Source of the DNA: Pseudoruegeria sp. HB172150
GTDB taxonomy: Bacteria; Pseudomonadota; Alphaproteobacteria; Rhodobacterales; Rhodobacteraceae
Length of the DNA stretch: 64,000 nt
Direction of reading: 5' to 3'
Assembly: GCF_013184805.1 (NCBI RefSeq)
Contig: NZ_JAATNG010000001.1
Location: 1,426,001 to 1,490,000 of the forward strand
Part shown: piece by piece, positions 42 to 9,493 of the stretch
Layout: each line of letters starts with the position of its first letter
How positions within the stretch are numbered: position 1 is the stretch's first letter
The notes under the pieces: generated by a model
What the model was told of the DNA's origin: nothing
What the model saw: only the letters and a program-made list of their open reading frames with translations
Database searches by the model: none
Translations under genes and position numbers: made by a program

Positions 42-1694
42 TTAGCTCTGGCCATAAATGGCCCGAAGCCAGCCTGCCATTGCCCTCAGTTTGGCCTCGC
101 TGTCCTCGCAGTACTCCATCGCACGTAAGTAGCCGTGAATCAGGCCCTCCCCGCTGTCCGTCGTGACATCGACTCCGGCGGACATCAGCGCCTCGGCATA
201 GGCAAGGCCGCTGTCGCGCAGGGGATCGTTCTGGGCGACGGCGATGTAGGCGGGAGGCAGTCCGGCGTGGGTGCTTGCGGCGAGAGGAGCAATGCGGGCG
301 TCGCTGTTGAGCTGCTGGACATCCGCGCAGTAGAGTGCATTGGTCGCGGCCATGCCGGCGACTTTCAGCAGGGGCCCCTCGGCGTTTTCCTCGTAGGAAG
401 GCCGCGAGCGGTCGAAGTCGCAGGCGGGATAGATCAACAGTTGCGCGCAAAGCGGTACGTCCTCGTCTCGGCAGGTCAGTGCGACGCAGGCGGCAAGGTT
501 GCCGCCCGCGCTGTCGCCGCCGATGGCGATGCGCGCAGGATCGATACCCAGCTTGTCTGCCTCGATATGCGCCCACTTCGCGATGGCGAGGATCTGCTGG
601 TAGGCGTCGGGGAAGGGATGTTCCGGTGCCAGCGCGTAATCCACCGAAATCACGGTCTGCCGGTTCCAAGCCGCCAGGCGCGCGGTGATGTCCCAGTGGG
701 TCTCGGGGCTGCCCTGCATCCAGCCACCGCCATGCATGTAGATTAGCGCCGGCTGGCTGCCTCCACTGGAGTGGCGGAAGATTCGCACCCGCACCGGACC
801 TCCGTCGCTGTCGATCCAGTGCTCTTCGTCCGTCTCCACTTCCGGTGGCGTTGGCAAACGCATGTCGCGGGCCACGCCTTCGAAATGCAGGCGCCGGTCG
901 GCGGGAGTCGCGTCGGTACTTAGCGTGGCCCATTTCGCGTCCCACACCTCGAGGAACCGGAAGATATCCGGGTTGATCATGCGTGCCTCCTCCTTGGGTC
1001 TTGGCAGGTCTAGTTCGGCGGAAAGTCCGGGCTTCATCACGAGGCCGAGAATCATGTCGCCCACATGCCGGCGCAGCATCCGCTGGCCGCGTTCGGTGAA
1101 CAGGTCGTCGCCGAAGATGCGCGAGAAGGTCGCGCGGTTCGAGACGTTGAAGATCGATACCGCCGAGATGTGCCAGTGCAGTTCCAGCGCCGAGAGGCCT
1201 TTGCGGAACAGCCCGGCCTCAACACCGCGCTTGTAGATGTCTTCGAGCAGGCGGATGACAGAGCTGTTCTGGCCGGCAATGATTTCCGAGCGCGACATGT
1301 GCTCGCCCTCATGGACGTTCTCGATCATCACGAGGCGGACGAAATCGGGCGCATGACGGTGGTGTTCGAAGGTGAACTCCGCCAGCTGGCGCAGCGCCTC
1401 GACCGGGTGCAAGGTGCCGAGGTCAAGCGCGTCCTCGCCCTTGCGCATACCGGCATAGGCGTCTTCCAATACCGCGCGGTAGAGCTTTTCCTTGTCGCCA
1501 AAGTAGTAATAGATCATCCGCTTCGAGGTGCGGGTGCGCGCCGCAATCTCGTCGATGCGGGCACCGGACAGGCCGTGCTGGGCGAAGACCTCTCGAGCCA
1601 CTTGCAGGATATTGCGGCGGACGGCGTCGGGATCCTGCTTCCACCCGCCGCGTTGCGAATCGCCGGTCCGGCCTTCCGAAGCGGTCTCACCCAT
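42..1694 (-). CDS. TetR-family regulator fused to an HSL-type alpha/beta hydrolase (esterase)
   Basis: One reading frame of 550 codons from the ATG at 1694, which follows a GGGAGGA ribosome site. Residues about 15-60 form a TetR helix-turn-helix (RMIYYYFGDKEKLY ends it), followed by a TetR ligand domain to about residue 238. The next residue is the Met of a complete 312-aa family IV (hormone-sensitive-lipase type) hydrolase with the HGGGW oxyanion motif, GDSAGG nucleophile (Ser157 of that part), Asp252 and His282. The two parts are normally separate proteins. Here no stop lies between them, yet an AAGGAGGAGG ribosome site precedes the internal ATG at 980, so a free esterase may also be made. 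The gene is divergent from the shikimate dehydrogenase operon and probably controls it; the inducer and ester substrate are unknown. Confidence 0.85.
   Translation of the reverse strand: MGETASEGRTGDSQRGGWKQDPDAVRRNILQVAREVFAQHGLSGARIDEIAARTRTSKRMIYYYFGDKEKLYRAVLEDAYAGMRKGEDALDLGTLHPVEALRQLAEFTFEHHRHAPDFVRLVMIENVHEGEHMSRSEIIAGQNSSVIRLLEDIYKRGVEAGLFRKGLSALELHWHISAVSIFNVSNRATFSRIFGDDLFTERGQRMLRRHVGDMILGLVMKPGLSAELDLPRPKEEARMINPDIFRFLEVWDAKWATLSTDATPADRRLHFEGVARDMRLPTPPEVETDEEHWIDSDGGPVRVRIFRHSSGGSQPALIYMHGGGWMQGSPETHWDITARLAAWNRQTVISVDYALAPEHPFPDAYQQILAIAKWAHIEADKLGIDPARIAIGGDSAGGNLAACVALTCRDEDVPLCAQLLIYPACDFDRSRPSYEENAEGPLLKVAGMAATNALYCADVQQLNSDARIAPLAASTHAGLPPAYIAVAQNDPLRDSGLAYAEALMSAGVDVTTDSGEGLIHGYLRAMEYCEDSEAKLRAMAGWLRAIYGQS
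986..995 (-). promoter_or_regulatory. Internal ribosome binding site before the esterase part
   Basis: On the minus strand AAGGAGGAGG sits five bases before the ATG at 980, inside the fused TetR-esterase frame. It is as strong as any ribosome site in the window. This suggests that translation can restart to give a 312-aa esterase besides the fusion. Independent initiation is inferred, not shown. Confidence 0.6.
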
Positions 1695-1809
1695 GTCGAT
1701 CGTCCTCCCACGCCTGGTCATTACGGCGTTGTAACCTATGGAAAGGCCCGGCTGAACCGCCTTGTCCGGGGCATCTCCACGTTCGTTTTTAACCATGGCG
1801 AACATCTCG

Positions 1810-1838
1810 TTGACTAATTTAACCGCCTAGTACATTCT
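1810..1838 (+). promoter_or_regulatory. Putative promoter of the quinate/shikimate operon
   Basis: TTGACT at 1810-1815 and CATTCT at 1833-1838 are separated by 17 bases, in the divergent gap between the TetR-esterase gene and the dehydrogenase. The -35 fits sigma-70 well and the -10 only moderately. The TetR operator should lie in this gap (1695-1882), but I could not pick out a convincing palindrome. Confidence 0.4.
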
Positions 1839-1882: not shown

Positions 1883-2761
1883 GTGTCACGTCCGTTGCCC
1901 ACGCAAGCCGATATGGCTGGCGCCCGTTCGCTGACGATCGGGCTACTTGGCAGCGGCATTTCCGGCTCGCGTACACCGCGCATGCACATGGAGGCGGCGA
2001 AAGCGCAGGGGCTGGAATACGACTATCGGCTGATAGACTCCCAAGTTCGCGAGTTGCCCGAAAATGCGGGCACGATCCTCGACATGCTGCAGAAGGAAGG
2101 GTTCGACGGACTGAACGTCACCTATCCCTACAAGCGCGCTGTCATCCCGTTCATTGATGAGCTGTCGCCGGCCGCCACGAATGTCGGCGCGGTGAACACC
2201 GTGGTGTTCCGGAACGGCAAGCGGTTCGGGCACAACACGGATCACTGGGGTTTCGCCGAGAGCCTGCGACGGGGACTGCCGGGTGCGAAGAAGGACGCTG
2301 TCCTTCTTCTTGGCGCCGGCGGAGCAGGCGGTGCGGTGGCCCACGCCCTTCTGGACGAGGGCGTGGGCCGTTTGATGATACGCGACGTGAACGCGGCGAC
2401 AGCCGATGAACTGGTCGCTCTGTTGGCGGATCACTATGGGCCCGGGCGTGCCGATGCGGTTTCGGTTGCGGCGGAGGCCGCGGGTGTAGCGGACGGCATC
2501 GTCAACGCCTCGCCCGTAGGGATGGAGAAACTGCCGGGCCTGCCGTTGCCGGCAGAGGCTCTGAAGGCCGGGCACTGGGTCGCCGACATCGTCTATTTCC
2601 CGCTGGAAACGGAACTGCTGGCAACAGCGCGGGCGCTTGGCTGCGCGGTGCTTCCGGGGTCGGGCATGGCGTTGTACCAGGCCGTCCGGGCCTACGAACT
2701 TTTCACCGGCCAGAAGCCGGATATCGAGCGGATGCGGGAGGCATTCGACTCTTTCAACTGA
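1883..2761 (+). CDS. Shikimate dehydrogenase (AroE/quinate-shikimate dehydrogenase family)
   Basis: 292 aa from a GTG start behind GGGAGGAG at 1867-1874. It interconverts shikimate (or quinate) and the 3-dehydro acid with NAD(P). The N-terminal substrate domain holds the catalytic pair Lys84 (in TYPYKRA) and Asp120 (in NTDHWGF); the nucleotide fold begins with LLGAGGAGGA at about residue 140. It is the first gene of an operon with TRAP transporter genes and a QuiC-type dehydratase. That points to a catabolic enzyme rather than the biosynthetic AroE, which should be encoded elsewhere. Cofactor and substrate preference cannot be read from sequence alone. Confidence 0.88.
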   Translation: MSRPLPTQADMAGARSLTIGLLGSGISGSRTPRMHMEAAKAQGLEYDYRLIDSQVRELPENAGTILDMLQKEGFDGLNVTYPYKRAVIPFIDELSPAATNVGAVNTVVFRNGKRFGHNTDHWGFAESLRRGLPGAKKDAVLLLGAGGAGGAVAHALLDEGVGRLMIRDVNAATADELVALLADHYGPGRADAVSVAAEAAGVADGIVNASPVGMEKLPGLPLPAEALKAGHWVADIVYFPLETELLATARALGCAVLPGSGMALYQAVRAYELFTGQKPDIERMREAFDSFN

Positions 2762-2800
2762 CGGCGGTGACCACCGCCGATGCGTAACAGGGAGGAACGC

Positions 2801-3790
2801 ATGACCAGACTGACACTGAAATCCGTACGGACGGCTGCCTTTGCCGTCGCCGCGGGTCTCGCCGCCGGAGCCGCAATCGCACAGGACGCGGTCGAGCTGA
2901 TCTATTCCGACACGGTTCAGGAGACCGACCGCCGGTCCGGCATCCTGAGGGAAAATTTCGCGGGCTGCTTGGGCGAAGGCTTTGAGTTCAAGCCGTATTT
3001 CGGTGCGACGCTCTTCAAGCAGGGCACAGAGCTGACCGCGATGCAGCGCGGCAACCTGGACATGGCGAACCTGGCGATCTTCGACTTCTACAACCAAGTG
3101 CCGGAAACCTCGATCCTCGGCACTGCCTACCTGTGGCGCGATTACGAGCATATGCGCGCGACCTTCGACAGCGACGTCCTGGACGGTCTGATCTCGAAGA
3201 TGGAAGAGGCGACCGGGATCAAGGTTCTGGCGTGGCCCTATATCGGCACCCGCCACGTTAACATCCGTGGCGACAAGGAGATCATGACGCCCGCCGATCT
3301 GGCAGGCATCAAATTGCGGATGCCGGGTGGCGAGGGCTGGCAGTTCGTGGGTGAGGCGCTCGGCGCGAACCCGACGCCGCTGGCCTTTACCGAGGTCTAC
3401 ACCGCGCTGCAGACCGGCGCCGTGGACGGACAGGACAACCCGCTGCCGGCCGACAAGCAGATGAAGTTCTACGAGGTGACGGACCAGATCATCCTGACCG
3501 GTCACCTGATCGCCAACAACGTCTTCTCGATGTCGGCAAGCAAGTGGGACAGCCTTGATGCCGATCAGCAGGCCAAGGTCGAGGAATGTGCGCGCGCATT
3601 CCAGGACGCGATGGATGCCGACACGATCCGGCAGGAATCCGAACTGGTCTCATTCTTCGAGGGCGAGGGGCTGAAGGTCTACGAGCCGAACAAGGACGCG
3701 TTCCGGACGCATGTGCTGGAGGTCTTCAAAAACTCCAAGTTCTCGGCCGACTGGCCCGAGGGTGTGCTGGACGCGATCGACGGGCTTTGA
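2801..3790 (+). CDS. TRAP transporter substrate-binding protein, DctP family (copy 1)
   Basis: 329 aa; the ATG at 2801 is chosen because GGGAGGAA lies seven bases upstream and the signal peptide (KSVRTAAFAVAAGLAAGA, cut near AIAQ) starts there. This periplasmic protein captures a carboxylate for the DctQM permease. The family motif with the carboxylate-binding Arg is seen in IKLRMPGGEGW. It is nearly a duplicate of the next gene, the two sharing long identical stretches. Cys56 and Cys263 have counterparts in copy 2 but not in the third binding protein of the operon, suggesting a disulfide. The substrate is probably quinate, shikimate or a related acid, inferred from its neighbours. Confidence 0.93.
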   Translation: MTRLTLKSVRTAAFAVAAGLAAGAAIAQDAVELIYSDTVQETDRRSGILRENFAGCLGEGFEFKPYFGATLFKQGTELTAMQRGNLDMANLAIFDFYNQVPETSILGTAYLWRDYEHMRATFDSDVLDGLISKMEEATGIKVLAWPYIGTRHVNIRGDKEIMTPADLAGIKLRMPGGEGWQFVGEALGANPTPLAFTEVYTALQTGAVDGQDNPLPADKQMKFYEVTDQIILTGHLIANNVFSMSASKWDSLDADQQAKVEECARAFQDAMDADTIRQESELVSFFEGEGLKVYEPNKDAFRTHVLEVFKNSKFSADWPEGVLDAIDGL

Positions 3791-3854
3791 ACGAACGGCG
3801 CGGCCCCGGAACGAGGCCGCGCCTACTGATAAGGATTCGGGAGGAAAAACGACA

Positions 3855-4835
3855 ATGAACCAGACACTTAGACATCTTGCGGCAGGAACGGTGCTGGCAC
3901 TTTCGCTGGGAACGTCGGCTTCGGCGCAAGAAGCGCCCTCGCTGATCTATTCCGACACCGTCGCCGCCGCTGACCCGCGCAGTGCCGTGCTGGACGAGGG
4001 CTTTGCCGGATGCCTTGGCGAGGCTTTCGCGTTCGAGCCTTATCACGGCGCGACGCTGGTCAAGCAGGGCACCGAACTGACCGCGATGCAGCGCGGCAAC
4101 CTCGACATGGCGAACCTTGCGATTTTCGACTTCTACAACCAGGTGCCCGAGACCTCGATCCTCGGGACCGCGTACCTGTTCCGCGACATCGATCACATGC
4201 GCACGGTCTATGACAGCGAGGTTCTGGATGACCTCGTGGCGCTGATGGAAGAGAAGACCAATATCAAGGTTCTCGGCTTCCCCTATATCGGCACCCGCCA
4301 CGTCAATATTCGCGGCGACAAGGAAATCATGACGCCTGCTGATCTGGACGGGATCAAGCTACGGATGCCGGGTGGCGAAGGCTGGCAGTTCCTGGGCGAA
4401 GCGCTGGGCGCGAACCCGACGCCTCTGGCCTTTACCGAGGTGTATACTGCGTTGCAGACCGGTGCGATCGACGGGCAGGACAACCCACTGCCGACCGACA
4501 AGTCGATGAAGTTCTACGAGGTAACGGACCAGATCATCCTGACCGGGCACCGCATGTCGAACAACGTCTTCGCGGTGTCGATGTCGAAATGGGACAGCCT
4601 GACGCCGGAGCAGCAGGAGACGCTGCAATCCTGCGCCGACCAGTTCGAGAACGACATGGCCGAGTATGTGATCGGGCAGGAGAACGAGCTTGTGTCCTTC
4701 TTCGAGGGCGAAGGGCTGAAGATCTACGAGCCCGACAAGACCGCGTTCCGCGATCACGTGCTGGAAGTCTACAAGGCGTCGAAATTCGCCGAGGACTGGC
4801 CGGAAGGACTGCTCGAGAAGATCGACGAGCTTTGA
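3855..4835 (+). CDS. TRAP transporter substrate-binding protein, DctP family (copy 2)
   Basis: 326 aa with a signal peptide ending at ASAQ; start at 3855 behind GGGAGGA. It is a tandem paralogue of the preceding gene, with the same LRMPGGEGW ligand motif, the same C-terminal FFEGEGLK segment, and Cys53 and Cys260 matching the cysteine pair of copy 1. The two copies differ mostly in surface and terminal positions, so they may bind related ligands or add dosage. It lies directly upstream of dctQ and dctM, so it is probably the main partner of that permease. Confidence 0.93.
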   Translation: MNQTLRHLAAGTVLALSLGTSASAQEAPSLIYSDTVAAADPRSAVLDEGFAGCLGEAFAFEPYHGATLVKQGTELTAMQRGNLDMANLAIFDFYNQVPETSILGTAYLFRDIDHMRTVYDSEVLDDLVALMEEKTNIKVLGFPYIGTRHVNIRGDKEIMTPADLDGIKLRMPGGEGWQFLGEALGANPTPLAFTEVYTALQTGAIDGQDNPLPTDKSMKFYEVTDQIILTGHRMSNNVFAVSMSKWDSLTPEQQETLQSCADQFENDMAEYVIGQENELVSFFEGEGLKIYEPDKTAFRDHVLEVYKASKFAEDWPEGLLEKIDEL

Positions 4836-4896
4836 GGCAGGAAGGGGTCCGGCGCTTCACCCGCCGGGCCCCGCATGAATGCTAACCGGGGGCAGA

Positions 4897-5418
4897 ATGG
4901 ACCGCCTGCGCAATATCTACGAGTGGCTCGGACGACGGGCCGAGAACTTTCTGGCGCTGATACTCGGGGCGCTCTTCGTAAGCTTCCTGATCCAGATCGT
5001 GTTCCGCTACGTGCTGAACCTGCCGCTGGGCTGGACGGTCGAGTTCGTGTCCATCGCGTGGCTCTGGGGGATCCTGTTCGGCTATGCCTTCGTTGTGCGC
5101 GAGGCCGACGTGATCCGGCTGGACATCATCTATGCCCTGCTGCCGCGTTGGGCCCGCCGGGTGCTGGATGTAACGACCGGCGCAATCTGCGCCGGGATCT
5201 TCATCTGGACCCTGCCTTACGTGTGGGACTACATCAGTTTCATGGCGATCGAGAAGACCGCCTATATGAAGATCCGCTTCGACTATGTCTTCGCGATCTA
5301 CATACCCTTCGCCCTGTCCGTGATCGTGCGCTGCTTCATCAGCATCTGGCGCGGCATTTCCGGTTCTGGCCCGGCGTTCGATACGCCCATGACGGCGGGT
5401 ACCCACGACTATGACTGA
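4897..5418 (+). CDS. TRAP transporter small permease, DctQ family
   Basis: 173 aa, four predicted membrane helices, with LGWTVEFVSIAWLWGILFG typical of DctQ. The ATG at 4897 is preferred to one six codons upstream because the family starts near this point; its ribosome site is weak. The end overlaps the start of dctM by eight bases, as is usual for coupled TRAP subunits. It forms the inner-membrane complex with DctM that takes substrate from the DctP proteins, driven by a sodium or proton gradient. Confidence 0.92.
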   Translation: MDRLRNIYEWLGRRAENFLALILGALFVSFLIQIVFRYVLNLPLGWTVEFVSIAWLWGILFGYAFVVREADVIRLDIIYALLPRWARRVLDVTTGAICAGIFIWTLPYVWDYISFMAIEKTAYMKIRFDYVFAIYIPFALSVIVRCFISIWRGISGSGPAFDTPMTAGTHDYD

Positions 5419-6706
5419 TCCGTTTACCGTTGCGATCGTCCTGATCGCGTTCCTCGCCTTCGGCGGGCTCTCGATGGGCCTGGCGATGATCTGCGGCTCT
5501 TCCGTCTATCTGATGATGAAGGGGTTCGATCCCTCCATCGCGTCCGAGACGCTGCTGCAGGGGCTTTTCAACAGCTACACGCTGCTGGCGATCCCGCTGT
5601 TCATCCTGGCCGCCGACATCATGAATATCGGCTCGCTCGCGGATCGGCTGCTGCGGTTCAGCCAGGCGCTGGTGGGGCGGTTCAAGGGCGGGCTGGGTCA
5701 CGTCAACGTCGTGTCGTCACTGATCTTTTCCGGCATGTCCGGGTCTGCCGTGGCCGACGCGGTGGGCATGGGCAAGATCATCATCAACATGATGACGAAG
5801 GACGGGAAATACACCGCGTCCTATGCCGCGGCGATCACCGCCGCCTCGGCCACGATCGGGCCGATCATCCCACCGTCGATCCCGATGGTTCTGTATGCGC
5901 TCGTCTCCGACCAGTCGGTGGGCTACCTGTTCGCCGCGGGCATGGCGCCGGGTCTGCTGATGGGCGTCGTGCTGATGATCATGAACATGATCATTGCGCA
6001 TCGCCGCGGCTTCGAGACGGACGAGGCGATCCCTCTGCGGGAGATGCCGATGGTCACAGTCCGCGCGTTTCCGGCGCTGATGCTGCCGGTGATCCTGCTT
6101 GGTGGGATCTATGGCGGGGTCATGACGCCGACCGAAGCGGCCGCGGTCGCGGCGTTCTATGCGCTGGCGATTTCGGTCATCTTCTATCGCTCGGTCTCGT
6201 TTCGCCAGTTCTACCAGACGCTGCTGGCCTCGGCCCGGTCCACCGCGACGGTGGGTATCCTGATCGCGGGCGCGCTGACGTTCCAGTACGTGGTGACGCG
6301 CGAGAACGTGCCGGATTCGCTGGCGGCGTTCCTGGCGCAATACGAGCTGTCGAAGGTCGGCTTCCTGCTGGCGATCAACGTGCTGTTCCTGGCGCTTGGC
6401 TGCATCCTGGAATCGGGTGCGATCCTGCTGATCATCGTGCCGATCTTCATCCCGACCGCGCAGGCGCTGGGCATCGACCTGGTGCATTTCGGCGTGATCT
6501 GCGTGGTCAACGCCATGCTGGGGCTGGTGACGCCGCCCTACGGGCTTTTGCTGTTCATCGTATCGTCGATCACCAAGCAGCCGCTGGCACGGATCGTCCG
6601 CGACCTGTGGCCGTTTCTTCTGGCGCTCGTCGTGGCGCTTCTGGTGATCACCTTCGTGCCGGACTTCGTGCTCTGGCTGCCGCGCCTGCTGGGCTACAAG
6701 GGGTAA
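5411..6706 (+). CDS. TRAP transporter large permease, DctM family
   Basis: 431 aa, about the family's usual length, with around twelve hydrophobic helices. Typical stretches are SGSAVADAVGMG, a glycine- and proline-rich ATIGPIIPPSIPMVLY, and VNAMLGLVTPPYGLLLF near the C terminus. It is the transport channel subunit of the operon. Only one DctQM pair is seen for three binding proteins, so all three may share it. The stop is four bases before the quiC start. Confidence 0.95.
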   Translation: MTDPFTVAIVLIAFLAFGGLSMGLAMICGSSVYLMMKGFDPSIASETLLQGLFNSYTLLAIPLFILAADIMNIGSLADRLLRFSQALVGRFKGGLGHVNVVSSLIFSGMSGSAVADAVGMGKIIINMMTKDGKYTASYAAAITAASATIGPIIPPSIPMVLYALVSDQSVGYLFAAGMAPGLLMGVVLMIMNMIIAHRRGFETDEAIPLREMPMVTVRAFPALMLPVILLGGIYGGVMTPTEAAAVAAFYALAISVIFYRSVSFRQFYQTLLASARSTATVGILIAGALTFQYVVTRENVPDSLAAFLAQYELSKVGFLLAINVLFLALGCILESGAILLIIVPIFIPTAQALGIDLVHFGVICVVNAMLGLVTPPYGLLLFIVSSITKQPLARIVRDLWPFLLALVVALLVITFVPDFVLWLPRLLGYKG

Positions 6707-6710
6707 TCCG

Positions 6711-8600
6711 ATGAAGACCTCGATTGCCACCGTCTGCATCGCCGGGGACCTTCGCGAGAAGCTTGCCGCAATCGCGGCGGCGGGGTTCGACGGGATCGAG
6801 ATCTTCGAGCAGGACTTCATCACCTTCGACGCCTCGCCACGCGAGGTGGGGGCCATGGTGCGCGATCACGGGCTGGAGATTTCGCTGTTCCAGCCGTTCC
6901 GAGATTTCGAGGGGCTGCCGGAATCGGAACGGGCCCGCGCGTTTGACCGGATGGAGCGCAAATTCGATCTGATGCAGGAACTGGGGACGGACCTGGTGCT
7001 GGTCTGCTCGTCGGTGCATCCGAAGGCTCTGGGCGGGATCGACCGGATGGCGGCGGATTTCGCGGAGCTGGGCGAACGGGCGGCAGCGCGGGACCTGCGC
7101 GTCGGATACGAGGCGCTGTGCTGGGGCAAGCATGTCTGGGACCACCGCGACGCATGGGAGGTGGTGCGCCGGGCCGATCATCCGAATATCGGGCTGATCG
7201 TCGACAGCTTTCACACGCTGGGGCGCAAGCTGGACCCGCAGTCGATCCGATCCATTCCCGGTGACAAGATCTTCTTCGTGCAACTGGCCGACGCACCGAT
7301 GATCGAGATGGACCTGCTCTACTGGTCGCGTCACTTCCGAAACATGCCGGGCGAAGGTGATCTGGATGTGACCGGGTTCATGCGGGCGGTGGCGGCGACG
7401 GGCTATGACGGGCCGATCAGCCTGGAGGTGTTCAACGATCAGTTCCGGGGCGGGTCGCCGCGCGCGATCGCGCTGGACGGCTATCGCTCGCTGGTCTGGC
7501 TGATGGATCAGGTGAAACGGGCAGAGCCGGGGATCGCCATCGACGTGCCGGAGATCCCGCCACGGATCCGGCCCGAAGGCGTCGCCTTCGTGGAATTCGC
7601 CGCGAACGATTCCGAGGCGGAAAACCTGCGCAAACTGTTGTTGTCGCTGGGGTTTCATCGCGCGGGACAGCACATCGCCAAGCAGGTCGAGGTCTGGCAG
7701 CAGGGCGAAATCCGCATCGTTCTGAACACCGATCCCGAGGGCTTCGCCCATACCTCGCATATCGCGCACGGGCTGAACGTCTGCGATGTCGGGCTGACGG
7801 TGGAGAGCGCACCGGCGACGGTCGAACGGGCGCAGGCGCTGGGCGCGACGCCGTTCAGCCAGCCTGTCGGGCCGGGAGAGCTTGATATCCCGGCGATCCG
7901 CGGCGTCGGCAGCGGGCTGTTGCATTTCATCGACCGGTCCAGCGATCTGGCCGACGTCTGGAAGATCGAGTTCGAGCCGGTCGCGGATGGCGGCGGACAG
8001 GGCGCCGGGCTGACCCGGATCGACCACATCGCGCAGACGATGAACTACGAAGAGATGCTGACCTGGTCGCTGTTCTACATCTCTCTGTTCGACACGCGGA
8101 AGCTGGCGACGGTGGACGTGGTGGATCCCGGCGGGCTGGTGCGGTCGCAGGCCATTGAGTCGCCGGATGGTGCGCTGCGGGTGACTCTGAACGGAGCGGA
8201 GACGCACCGGACCTTCGCGGGCCGCTTCATCGCGGACAGCTTCGGATCTTCGGTGCAGCACGTCGCCTTTGCCACCGACGATATCTTCGCAACCGCCGAG
8301 GCTCTGGCCGCCAACGGGTTCGAGGCGCTGCCGATGCCGGATAACTATTACGAAGATCTCGCGGCCCGTCTGGGGCTGGACGAGACATTCGTCGCACGCC
8401 TGAGGGCGCATGACATCCTCTATGACGAGGACGCCAGCGGGGCGTTTTTCCAGATATATTCCAAGAGCTTCGGTGACGGGATCTTTTTCGAGGTGATGCA
8501 GCGGAAGGACGGCTACGCCGGCTATGGCGCGCCGAACGCACCGTTCCGTATCGCAGCGCAGCGGCGATTGATGCCGCAGCCCGGCATCCCGAAACGCTAG
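6711..8600 (+). CDS. quiC: 3-dehydroshikimate dehydratase fused to an HPPD-like domain (QuiC type)
   Basis: 629 aa, two-domain architecture as in Pseudomonas QuiC. Residues 1-270 are a sugar-phosphate isomerase-like TIM barrel that converts 3-dehydroshikimate to protocatechuate; VDSFHTLGR and SLEVFNDQFRG carry likely metal ligands. Residues about 290-610 resemble 4-hydroxyphenylpyruvate dioxygenase and keep the three metal ligands His439, His517 and Glu594. Activity of that domain is not established. With the shikimate dehydrogenase this would funnel quinate or shikimate into the beta-ketoadipate route; the ring-cleavage genes are not in the window. Confidence 0.9.
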   Translation: MKTSIATVCIAGDLREKLAAIAAAGFDGIEIFEQDFITFDASPREVGAMVRDHGLEISLFQPFRDFEGLPESERARAFDRMERKFDLMQELGTDLVLVCSSVHPKALGGIDRMAADFAELGERAAARDLRVGYEALCWGKHVWDHRDAWEVVRRADHPNIGLIVDSFHTLGRKLDPQSIRSIPGDKIFFVQLADAPMIEMDLLYWSRHFRNMPGEGDLDVTGFMRAVAATGYDGPISLEVFNDQFRGGSPRAIALDGYRSLVWLMDQVKRAEPGIAIDVPEIPPRIRPEGVAFVEFAANDSEAENLRKLLLSLGFHRAGQHIAKQVEVWQQGEIRIVLNTDPEGFAHTSHIAHGLNVCDVGLTVESAPATVERAQALGATPFSQPVGPGELDIPAIRGVGSGLLHFIDRSSDLADVWKIEFEPVADGGGQGAGLTRIDHIAQTMNYEEMLTWSLFYISLFDTRKLATVDVVDPGGLVRSQAIESPDGALRVTLNGAETHRTFAGRFIADSFGSSVQHVAFATDDIFATAEALAANGFEALPMPDNYYEDLAARLGLDETFVARLRAHDILYDEDASGAFFQIYSKSFGDGIFFEVMQRKDGYAGYGAPNAPFRIAAQRRLMPQPGIPKR

Positions 8601-8608
8601 GACATGTG

Positions 8609-9493
8609 ATGCTGAAACCCACCGTCGAATGCGTGCAGAAGGTCGCGGCGCAGTTGGGTGAAACCCCGCTGTGGGATGCGCGGCGTGGCGTGCTGACATG
8701 GATCGACATCGAGCAGCCGACCTTCTGGACGCTTGATCCGGGGAGCGGTGAGGCAACGGCGCTCAAGCAACCCGGAACCTACCTTGGCTGTCAGGCGCTG
8801 ACGACGTCGGGCAAGTACCTGATCGCGCGGGATCTCGAGCTAATGCTGCTCGATGCCGCAAACGGGGGCGTGATACCCTTCGCGACCACACCGAGCGAGG
8901 CGATGCCCGCCACGAGGCTGAACGATGGCCGTGTCGATGCCATGGGACGGCTCTGGATCGGCACGATGGATAACGGGCTGAAGGACGGTCTGGGTGCGCT
9001 GTATCGCGTAGATCCGGATGGTACGATGACCCGGATGCTGGACGACATCGTGGTCTCGAACGGGATCGCCTTCGACCCGGACGGCCGGCATATGTATTTC
9101 ACCGATACGCGCCGGTACATCACGTTCCGCCTAACGCTGGACGAGGCGGGCGAAACGGTAACCGACCGCGAGGTCTTTGCCGATTACTTGGCCACCGGTG
9201 ACCGCCCGGACGGTGCCTGCATCGACGTGGACGGCTGCCTCTGGCAGGCGTTTTTCGCGGGCGGCAAGGTCGTCCGCTATTCCCCCGACGGGCGCATCGA
9301 CCGCGAGGTCGCGCTGCCCGTCACCAACCCGACATGCCTGTGCTTTGGCGGGCCGGACTTCAAGACGCTCTACGTCACCACCGCCTTCAAGTTCCTGAGC
9401 CAGGAACAGCTCGACGCCGAGCCGCTTGCCGGCAGCGTCTTTGCCATCGAGGGCGCGGGGCAGGGCGTGCCCGAAAACCATTTCGCAATCTGA
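8609..9493 (+). CDS. SMP-30/gluconolactonase/LRE family lactonase
   Basis: 294 aa six-bladed propeller. It keeps the metal-binding positions of the family: Glu in GETPLWD, Asn in SNGIAFDPDG and Asp in PDGACIDVDG. The start is ATG 8609 or the GTG one codon before. These enzymes open sugar or acid lactones. Its place between quiC and a TRAP binding protein suggests it hydrolyses a lactone form of the imported substrate (for example a quinide). That is inference from context only. Confidence 0.88.
   Translation: MLKPTVECVQKVAAQLGETPLWDARRGVLTWIDIEQPTFWTLDPGSGEATALKQPGTYLGCQALTTSGKYLIARDLELMLLDAANGGVIPFATTPSEAMPATRLNDGRVDAMGRLWIGTMDNGLKDGLGALYRVDPDGTMTRMLDDIVVSNGIAFDPDGRHMYFTDTRRYITFRLTLDEAGETVTDREVFADYLATGDRPDGACIDVDGCLWQAFFAGGKVVRYSPDGRIDREVALPVTNPTCLCFGGPDFKTLYVTTAFKFLSQEQLDAEPLAGSVFAIEGAGQGVPENHFAI

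Follow-up and report, generated by a model that had tools for sequence, protein, structure and literature searches.

A TetR regulator and an esterase in one frame

Why should a complete TetR regulator and a complete HSL-type esterase be read as one polypeptide beside genes for quinate/shikimate use, with a ribosome site and a start codon preserved between them? The open reading frame occupies positions 42..1694 of the minus strand in the window, by which we mean the whole stretch of 64,000 nucleotides analyzed, and runs from ATG to stop without interruption (550 amino acids plus stop). The mechanical ORF extends to an ATG at 1805; the start at 1694 was preferred because close homologues align there from residue 1 and because GGGAGG (1704..1709, minus strand), likely the ribosome site of the full-length product, lies 9 bases upstream.

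The earlier note had read this frame as a full TetR protein followed by a full alpha/beta hydrolase, with a ribosome site and an ATG at the junction, and both observations were borne out. All Pfam domains exceeded their cut-offs. The TetR part (residues 1-225; 1020..1694, minus strand) carries the helix-turn-helix and C-terminal ligand-binding domains of the family, TetR_N (PF00440, residues 29-75, E 3.5e-14, 52.8 bits against a cut-off of 24) and TetR_C_29 (PF17938, residues 97-215, E 6.9e-43, 146 bits against 26.2), and its ten-residue HTH stretch TSKRMIYYYF is identical in 35 of 36 aligned TetR rows. A linker ending in PKEEAR (residues 226-238; 981..1019, minus strand) leads to the HSL-type esterase part (residues 239-550; 42..980, minus strand), which matches Abhydrolase_3 (residues 317-523, E 1.4e-62, above the curated cut-off) and shows the HGGG motif (HGGGW, 321-325), GDSAG with Ser395, Asp490, and His520. 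The protein fell below the curated cut-offs of LipP1 (NF058653, 264 bits against 350) and of chloramphenicol hydrolase (NF033149, 204 bits against 500). At the junction, a Shine-Dalgarno-like AAGGAGGAGG (986..995, minus strand) precedes the ATG of residue 239 (978..980, minus strand), AAGGAGGAGG-CACGC-ATG spanning 995..978, and this ATG stands where unfused relatives begin their esterase gene.

AlphaFold modeled the 550-residue protein with pLDDT 88.5 and pTM 0.59, that is, with high confidence in both domains, a weak linker (pLDDT below 50 at residues 227-236), and a relative domain placement that is not confident. In a PDB fold search, HSL-type esterases ranked first (Est8, 4ypv, target TM 0.92).

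The fused frame recurs in related bacteria

The earlier note had turned to relatives for a decision, asking whether the two genes are always separate elsewhere and joined in this assembly only. We found TetR and esterase in one frame in 29 of 116 loci examined, at least 28 of them distinct with the window counted, and one presumed copy (L002, of L031) left out; the 116 loci were drawn in part from a search keeping the best 80 of 342 relatives, so that the fused and unfused counts are not frequencies. Outside the 28 stand a further fused locus with ATG, Shine-Dalgarno site, and triad (L162), two loci of a second fusion (L164 and L180), and presumed copies of L046, L109, L040, and L038 (L160, L161, L163, and L184, respectively). 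Fused loci occur in Sagittula, Salipiger, Alloyangia, Marivita, Pseudooceanicola, Martelella, and Nisaea, among others, with 58-86% identity to the window in the esterase half and 66-85% in the TetR half. A candidate in Sphingobium (L116) was discarded, its TetR and hydrolase lying on separate ORFs.

A full-length fused frame was present in 6 genomes of an order sample of 390, the window's genome among them, and in 2 of a class sample of 385, one being the window's genome. A junction-peptide survey of 394 genomes gave 4 matches including the window's, and it was not used as an estimate of spread because the query was too short.

The fusion lies opposite a quinate/shikimate operon and shares operator-like sites with it

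The operon that the earlier note had placed opposite the fused gene is indeed there, all of it on the plus strand. It begins with a shikimate/quinate dehydrogenase-like gene (SDH; 1883..2761; NCBIfam NF009201, 386 bits, cut-off 235), followed by a TRAP solute-binding protein gene (DctP; 2780..3790, mechanical ORF, Pfam/NCBIfam), a second DctP gene (3711..4835, mechanical ORF, likely ATG near 3855), a TRAP small permease-like gene (DctQ; 4879..5418), which has no NCBIfam match and was assigned by position and homology to annotated small permeases, and the TRAP large permease gene (DctM; 5411..6706; TIGR00786, 419 bits). Then come a QuiC-like 3-dehydroshikimate dehydratase gene with an HPPD-like C-terminal half (6711..8600; best match NF042435, 689 bits, below the cut-off of 1200) and an SMP-30/gluconolactonase-like gene (8606..9493; PF08450, E 5.3e-78). 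A tandem pair of DctP genes (2780-4835) thus precedes a single TRAP permease pair. In 19 of the 28 loci the fused gene and the SDH and TRAP genes point away from each other, and 9 have no adjoining SDH gene.

An operator motif, TTTGTACnAnnCGGTTAATT, was trained on the SDH-TetR gaps of 50 unfused loci, the 19 fused gaps being held out. It found at least one site in 19/19 fused gaps and two sites in 15/19, against a shuffled mean of 0.2 of 19, although this result is not blind because all gaps, fused ones included, had been inspected when the seed was chosen. The spacing between sites was 30 bp in 13 of the 15 two-site gaps. Putative operator 1 of the window, TGTACTAGGCGGTTAAA (1818..1834, minus strand), has the strict form; putative operator 2, TGTTCGCCATGGTTAAA (1788..1804, minus strand), lies 30 bp from it, scores lower, and misses the strict pattern. 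The strict form, which fits operator 1 alone, occurs once in the 5.06 Mb genome and the reversed pattern 0 times. The remaining nine fused loci have a site within 600 bases upstream, with best scores of 20.9-25.3 that were read without a shuffled control. A promoter scan of 900-1950 found none at the divergent promoters.

Since a motif derived from unfused loci is present in every one of the 19 fused gaps, there is good support for its control of the divergent operon, and the fusion very probably controls these quinate/shikimate genes. Self-control together with operon control is the natural reading of the arrangement, and by analogy with the TetR family this control would be repression.

The two halves have different ancestries

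In unfused loci the two genes are neighbors or operon members. They are adjacent in 18 other loci (in L071 the TetR is frameshifted), and in 9 of the 18 they share an ATGA overlap (L052, L055, L057, L058, L062, L064, L066, L067, and L081). L061 and L065 (Aquibium) have the TetR gene next to the esterase gene without overlap, perhaps an earlier state of the gene pair.

Results of the tree analyses showed that the fused TetRs join the solo TetRs of one quinate/shikimate operon type (type A; support 99-100) and not those of the adjacent pairs (type B); a clade of fused and adjacent-pair TetRs, a group named after viewing the tree, was rejected (AU p 0.00016). SDH of the fused loci also groups with type A (support 98), as does QuiC (99) except in Nisaea, and DctM groups with type B (100) except in L041-L043. 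Set against other HSLs, the esterases from fused loci fall together with those from adjacent loci (100), and inside that group the main fused set, joined by L051 and L071, is a single clade (98-100 in the esterase trees); type-A operons have no esterase for comparison. Because the halves have different nearest kin, the junction is that of a chimera, and on these trees the fusion gene is a chimera of a type-A TetR and a type-B-associated esterase. Rows L003-L030 were excluded from the second esterase and TetR trees and from the SDH, DctM, and QuiC trees; the TetR tree of the AU test kept some of them and excluded L116, L012, L013, L017, and L059, and the second TetR tree excluded L116 and L059. 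L051 and L071 have no TetR row because their pieces are too short.

On the TetR side the trees do not firmly unite the main fused set (node support 0 in one tree, and solo type-A TetRs nested inside the fused rows, at 83, in the second), and therefore the TetR side does not settle the number or direction of joins: one gain, several gains, or later loss of the esterase in solo types would each be compatible with these trees. The solo TetR of L080 (Roseivivax halodurans) is placed beside or within the fused/type-A group, and its downstream DNA resembles by eye another kind of hydrolase (GHSLGG).

The junction itself offers a possible route. At its end the linker reads PREEAR/PKEEAR, similar to the last residues of the unfused L057 TetR (KPREEETR, then stop), and the junctions of L035 and L057 are alike, differing by one C before the ATG; judging from these sequences, that extra C would suffice to bring both frames into register.

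A second, independent fusion

Genome G256 has two fused TetR-esterase copies with another TetR type, lying outside the main fused groups (themselves supported at 99) in both trees, and this different TetR type and tree placement reject a single fusion event for all members. On the same sequences, the copies may represent one duplicated fusion or two fusions. Copy 1 adjoins SDH and TRAP genes and has two operator-like sites and an ATG plus AAAGGAG. In copy 2 CTG replaces the internal ATG, one operator-like site is present (score 13.7), and no SDH or TRAP genes lie in the stretch read. Of this pair (L189/L190), the CTG copy, without adjoining quinate genes, has its esterase half on a long branch.

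A repressor that may carry the source of its own inducer

Taking as fixed points the fusion itself, its presence in many genomes, the differing ancestries of its halves, the conserved operator-like sites, and the intact triad of the window's protein, all read from sequence, we infer a bifunctional polypeptide whose TetR half represses the operon and its own gene and whose esterase half makes inducer or substrate nearby; we hold this whole explanation with moderate confidence. The TetR half would bind two operators 30 bp apart, repressing its own gene and the divergent operon for quinate/shikimate uptake and catabolism, and repression would be relieved by a compound of the pathway (quinate, shikimate, dehydroshikimate, or protocatechuate). 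The esterase half, with its full triad, would hydrolyze an acylated relative of these compounds, releasing inducer or growth substrate near the regulator, and in the window's lineage the retained ribosome site would additionally yield some free esterase. As to origin, recombination would have placed the TetR of a type-A operon ahead of a TetR-esterase junction of type B, and a single base added before the ATGA overlap would have brought the two frames into register. The esterase gene follows a TRAP permease in five other loci, and a chlorogenate-like ester, which is a guess, would fit the operon context as substrate.

The internal start is probably usable in the window's lineage and is dispensable in some other fused loci

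The window contains 4 copies of AAGGAGG-N4-9-ATG, where shuffles gave a mean of 0.62 and a maximum of 3, and from its alignment with unfused relatives the internal ribosome site marks the former start of the esterase gene. Is it still in use? The earlier note had proposed a free esterase from the same mRNA, and one may go further and suppose that two proteins are always made, the fusion serving mainly as a repressor and the internal start supplying the working esterase. In keeping with this, the 13 triad-intact fused loci that retain the ATG have GGAGG/AGGAG upstream of it in 11 cases and GAGG in 2. Moreover, synonymous-site conservation at the junction ranks 3rd of 517 windows along the gene in the close clade (11 sequences), 5th of 520 without Sagittula, and 16th of 517 in a thinned set of 6, and it is missing, at the same offset, in the Alloyangia/Salipiger clade without ATG (301st of 529); these ranks are the best of several offsets, and they are support rather than proof because other windows of the gene rank as high.

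Against two products as a rule, the internal ATG is present in 14 of the 28 distinct fused loci and absent in 14, 6 of the latter with the triad intact (Sagittula P11 and MA-2, three Nisaea rows, and L041); the free esterase is therefore dispensable in those loci, and we rejected the internal start as an obligate feature. L180, of the second fusion, has likewise lost the ATG and kept the triad. We regard the supposition that two proteins are always made as quite possible, somewhat short of an even chance. What stands of the earlier claim is local: the synonymous-site signal, together with two loci (L051 and L071) in which the TetR half is broken and the esterase frame, Shine-Dalgarno site, and ATG are intact, suggests that the window's lineage can probably still make use of the internal start, and the claim does not extend to fused genes in general.

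In L051 (7900-9185) of Puniceibacterium sediminis, a genome to which L165 presumably also belongs, the TetR half is degraded and a solo TetR lies elsewhere (L075). In L071 (6880-8486, Sagittula marina) the TetR matches fall in three pieces in different frames, and a sequencing error is possible.

One branch has lost its catalytic residues

The catalytic Ser is replaced by Gly in 9 of the 28 fused loci, and in 7 of these 9 the His is replaced by Arg. The nine are Martelella (L042 and L043) and Alloyangia/Salipiger (L044, L045, L047, L048, and L111-L113); no loss of Ser or His was found among the 18 adjacent and 6 separate esterases examined. The esterase trees place all nine in a single clade (98-99), so that one event is the simplest account of the Ser loss. 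AGGAG/GGAGG precedes the junction in 0/9 (GAGG in L048, L112, and L113), and the junction start codon is ATG in one and GTG in one. The fusion that the earlier note had described is real; the feedback it had suggested is plausible where the window is concerned and is not general among fused loci.

What has the dead domain become? Its dN/dS in ten pairs was 0.08-0.29 (median near 0.21), roughly double the value in ten active pairs (0.06-0.25, median near 0.11) and higher than in the TetR half (0.05-0.12). By these sequence measures it is still under purifying selection, and less tightly constrained than the active forms. The 43 active rows share 96 conserved positions; all nine dead rows keep 61 of these unchanged, and all nine depart from 6. 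These 6 cluster near the catalytic motifs (within 2, 4, and 6 residues, Fisher p 0.013, 0.013, and 0.002), and the hydrolase fold is predicted with high confidence (pLDDT 89.0).

An enzyme turning into a sensor or a structural part fits these data, and we tentatively suggest that in the Martelella and Alloyangia/Salipiger branch the esterase may have become a non-catalytic, ligand-sensing domain of a TetR repressor. The competing view, to which we give a similar, below-even standing, is that the dead domain is a passive relic or a mere stabilizing or dimerizing module and senses nothing. The raised dN/dS, above that of the TetR half, and the descent of all nine from what is most simply one event are in its favor; dN/dS nevertheless stays far below 1 over about 300 residues, the changed positions gather around the old catalytic motifs, and the predicted fold is kept.

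A sensor of this kind would have a parallel in GID1, the plant gibberellin receptor, an HSL fold that has lost its catalytic His and whose Ser and Asp contact the hormone, as described in the excerpt of PMC3531792. The nine dead rows are alike in having the HSL fold minus a catalytic residue. Unlike GID1, as that excerpt presents it, they have lost Ser in 9/9 and His in 7/9, and they are fused to a repressor, ligand binding being only proposed; the window's own protein keeps its triad and hence lacks the loss of a triad residue seen in GID1.

The surroundings of the dead fusions differ. In Martelella the fusion lies beside quinate genes with two sites. The four Alloyangia/Salipiger genomes searched have a separate QuiC gene besides the stand-alone fusion, and near that QuiC there is a further TetR (56-58% identity) with two or three operator-like sites.

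Relation to known systems

Regulators with an enzyme-like domain are usually met only as finished products. The related bacteria studied here still have the separate, the overlapping, the actively fused, and the dead form, all with the same conserved operator motif, and these coexisting forms, with the second fusion, make the route from enzyme to sensor directly testable. We consider this series, which starts at separate genes and ends at a dead fused domain, a more valuable result than the two-product or feedback reading. If the sensor proposal is true, bacteria would offer a counterpart to GID1 in which all stages survive: separate genes, overlapping genes, an active fusion with an internal start, a fusion without one, and a dead sensor, ending with the Alloyangia/Salipiger form, which is detached from the operon and has an operator-like site upstream of it. 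The work also supplies an operator and a candidate regulator for quinate/shikimate use in Alphaproteobacteria.

The fusion resembles TetR one-component repressors (PF00440 plus PF17938) in its complete TetR domains, its divergent operon, and the operator-like sites in the shared promoter region, and differs from them in carrying, on the same chain, an entire catalytic domain behind the TetR ligand domain. It shares fold, HGGG, GDSAG, and triad with the HSL family IV esterases Est8 (4ypv) and Est2 (1evq), at 37-38% identity in fold alignments; unlike these, it tethers the esterase to a DNA-binding repressor, and one branch has lost the triad. MocR/GabR regulators, in which according to the excerpt of PMC5320631 a GntR DNA-binding domain is joined to an aminotransferase-like sensory domain, likewise carry a metabolic-enzyme fold on a DNA-binding domain as the sensory part. 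Compared with what that excerpt describes, the present case involves another DNA-binding family and another enzyme fold, and has active and dead versions alongside unfused relatives. Among the matches listed in the open-licence PMC literature, none concerned a TetR-HSL fusion or a TetR regulator of quinate genes, and none of the chlorogenate esterase papers listed there dealt with this system, judged by title and the beginning of the abstract.

Are the two halves functionally linked?

The fusion could also be a neutral accident, two overlapping genes merged by a frame change, each half still doing its own work with no functional connection to the other. The two genes are in any case neighbors or operon members when unfused, the low-confidence linker is probably flexible according to the model, and the halves change singly, TetR being broken in L051 and L071 and the triad lost in the nine rows. 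The fused frame, on the other hand, persists in 21 other fused rows at 61-86% identity to the window's protein, the same pair was fused a second time, and the stand-alone fusions retain their upstream operator-like site. On balance we think an accident unlikely, and we keep to the bifunctional polypeptide as the preferred reading.

That two separate genes were joined by a sequencing or assembly error, for which the overlap of precursor-like genes in relatives is the sole point, is practically impossible and was ruled out by the comparative data, the same frame recurring across many separate assemblies and six plasmid records (5 of the 6 in RefSeq) annotating the fusion as one CDS.

On two Sagittula plasmids (L109 and L114) no SDH match adjoins the fusion, and the neighboring DctP-like region, which carries the annotation of two short hypothetical proteins, may be a remnant.
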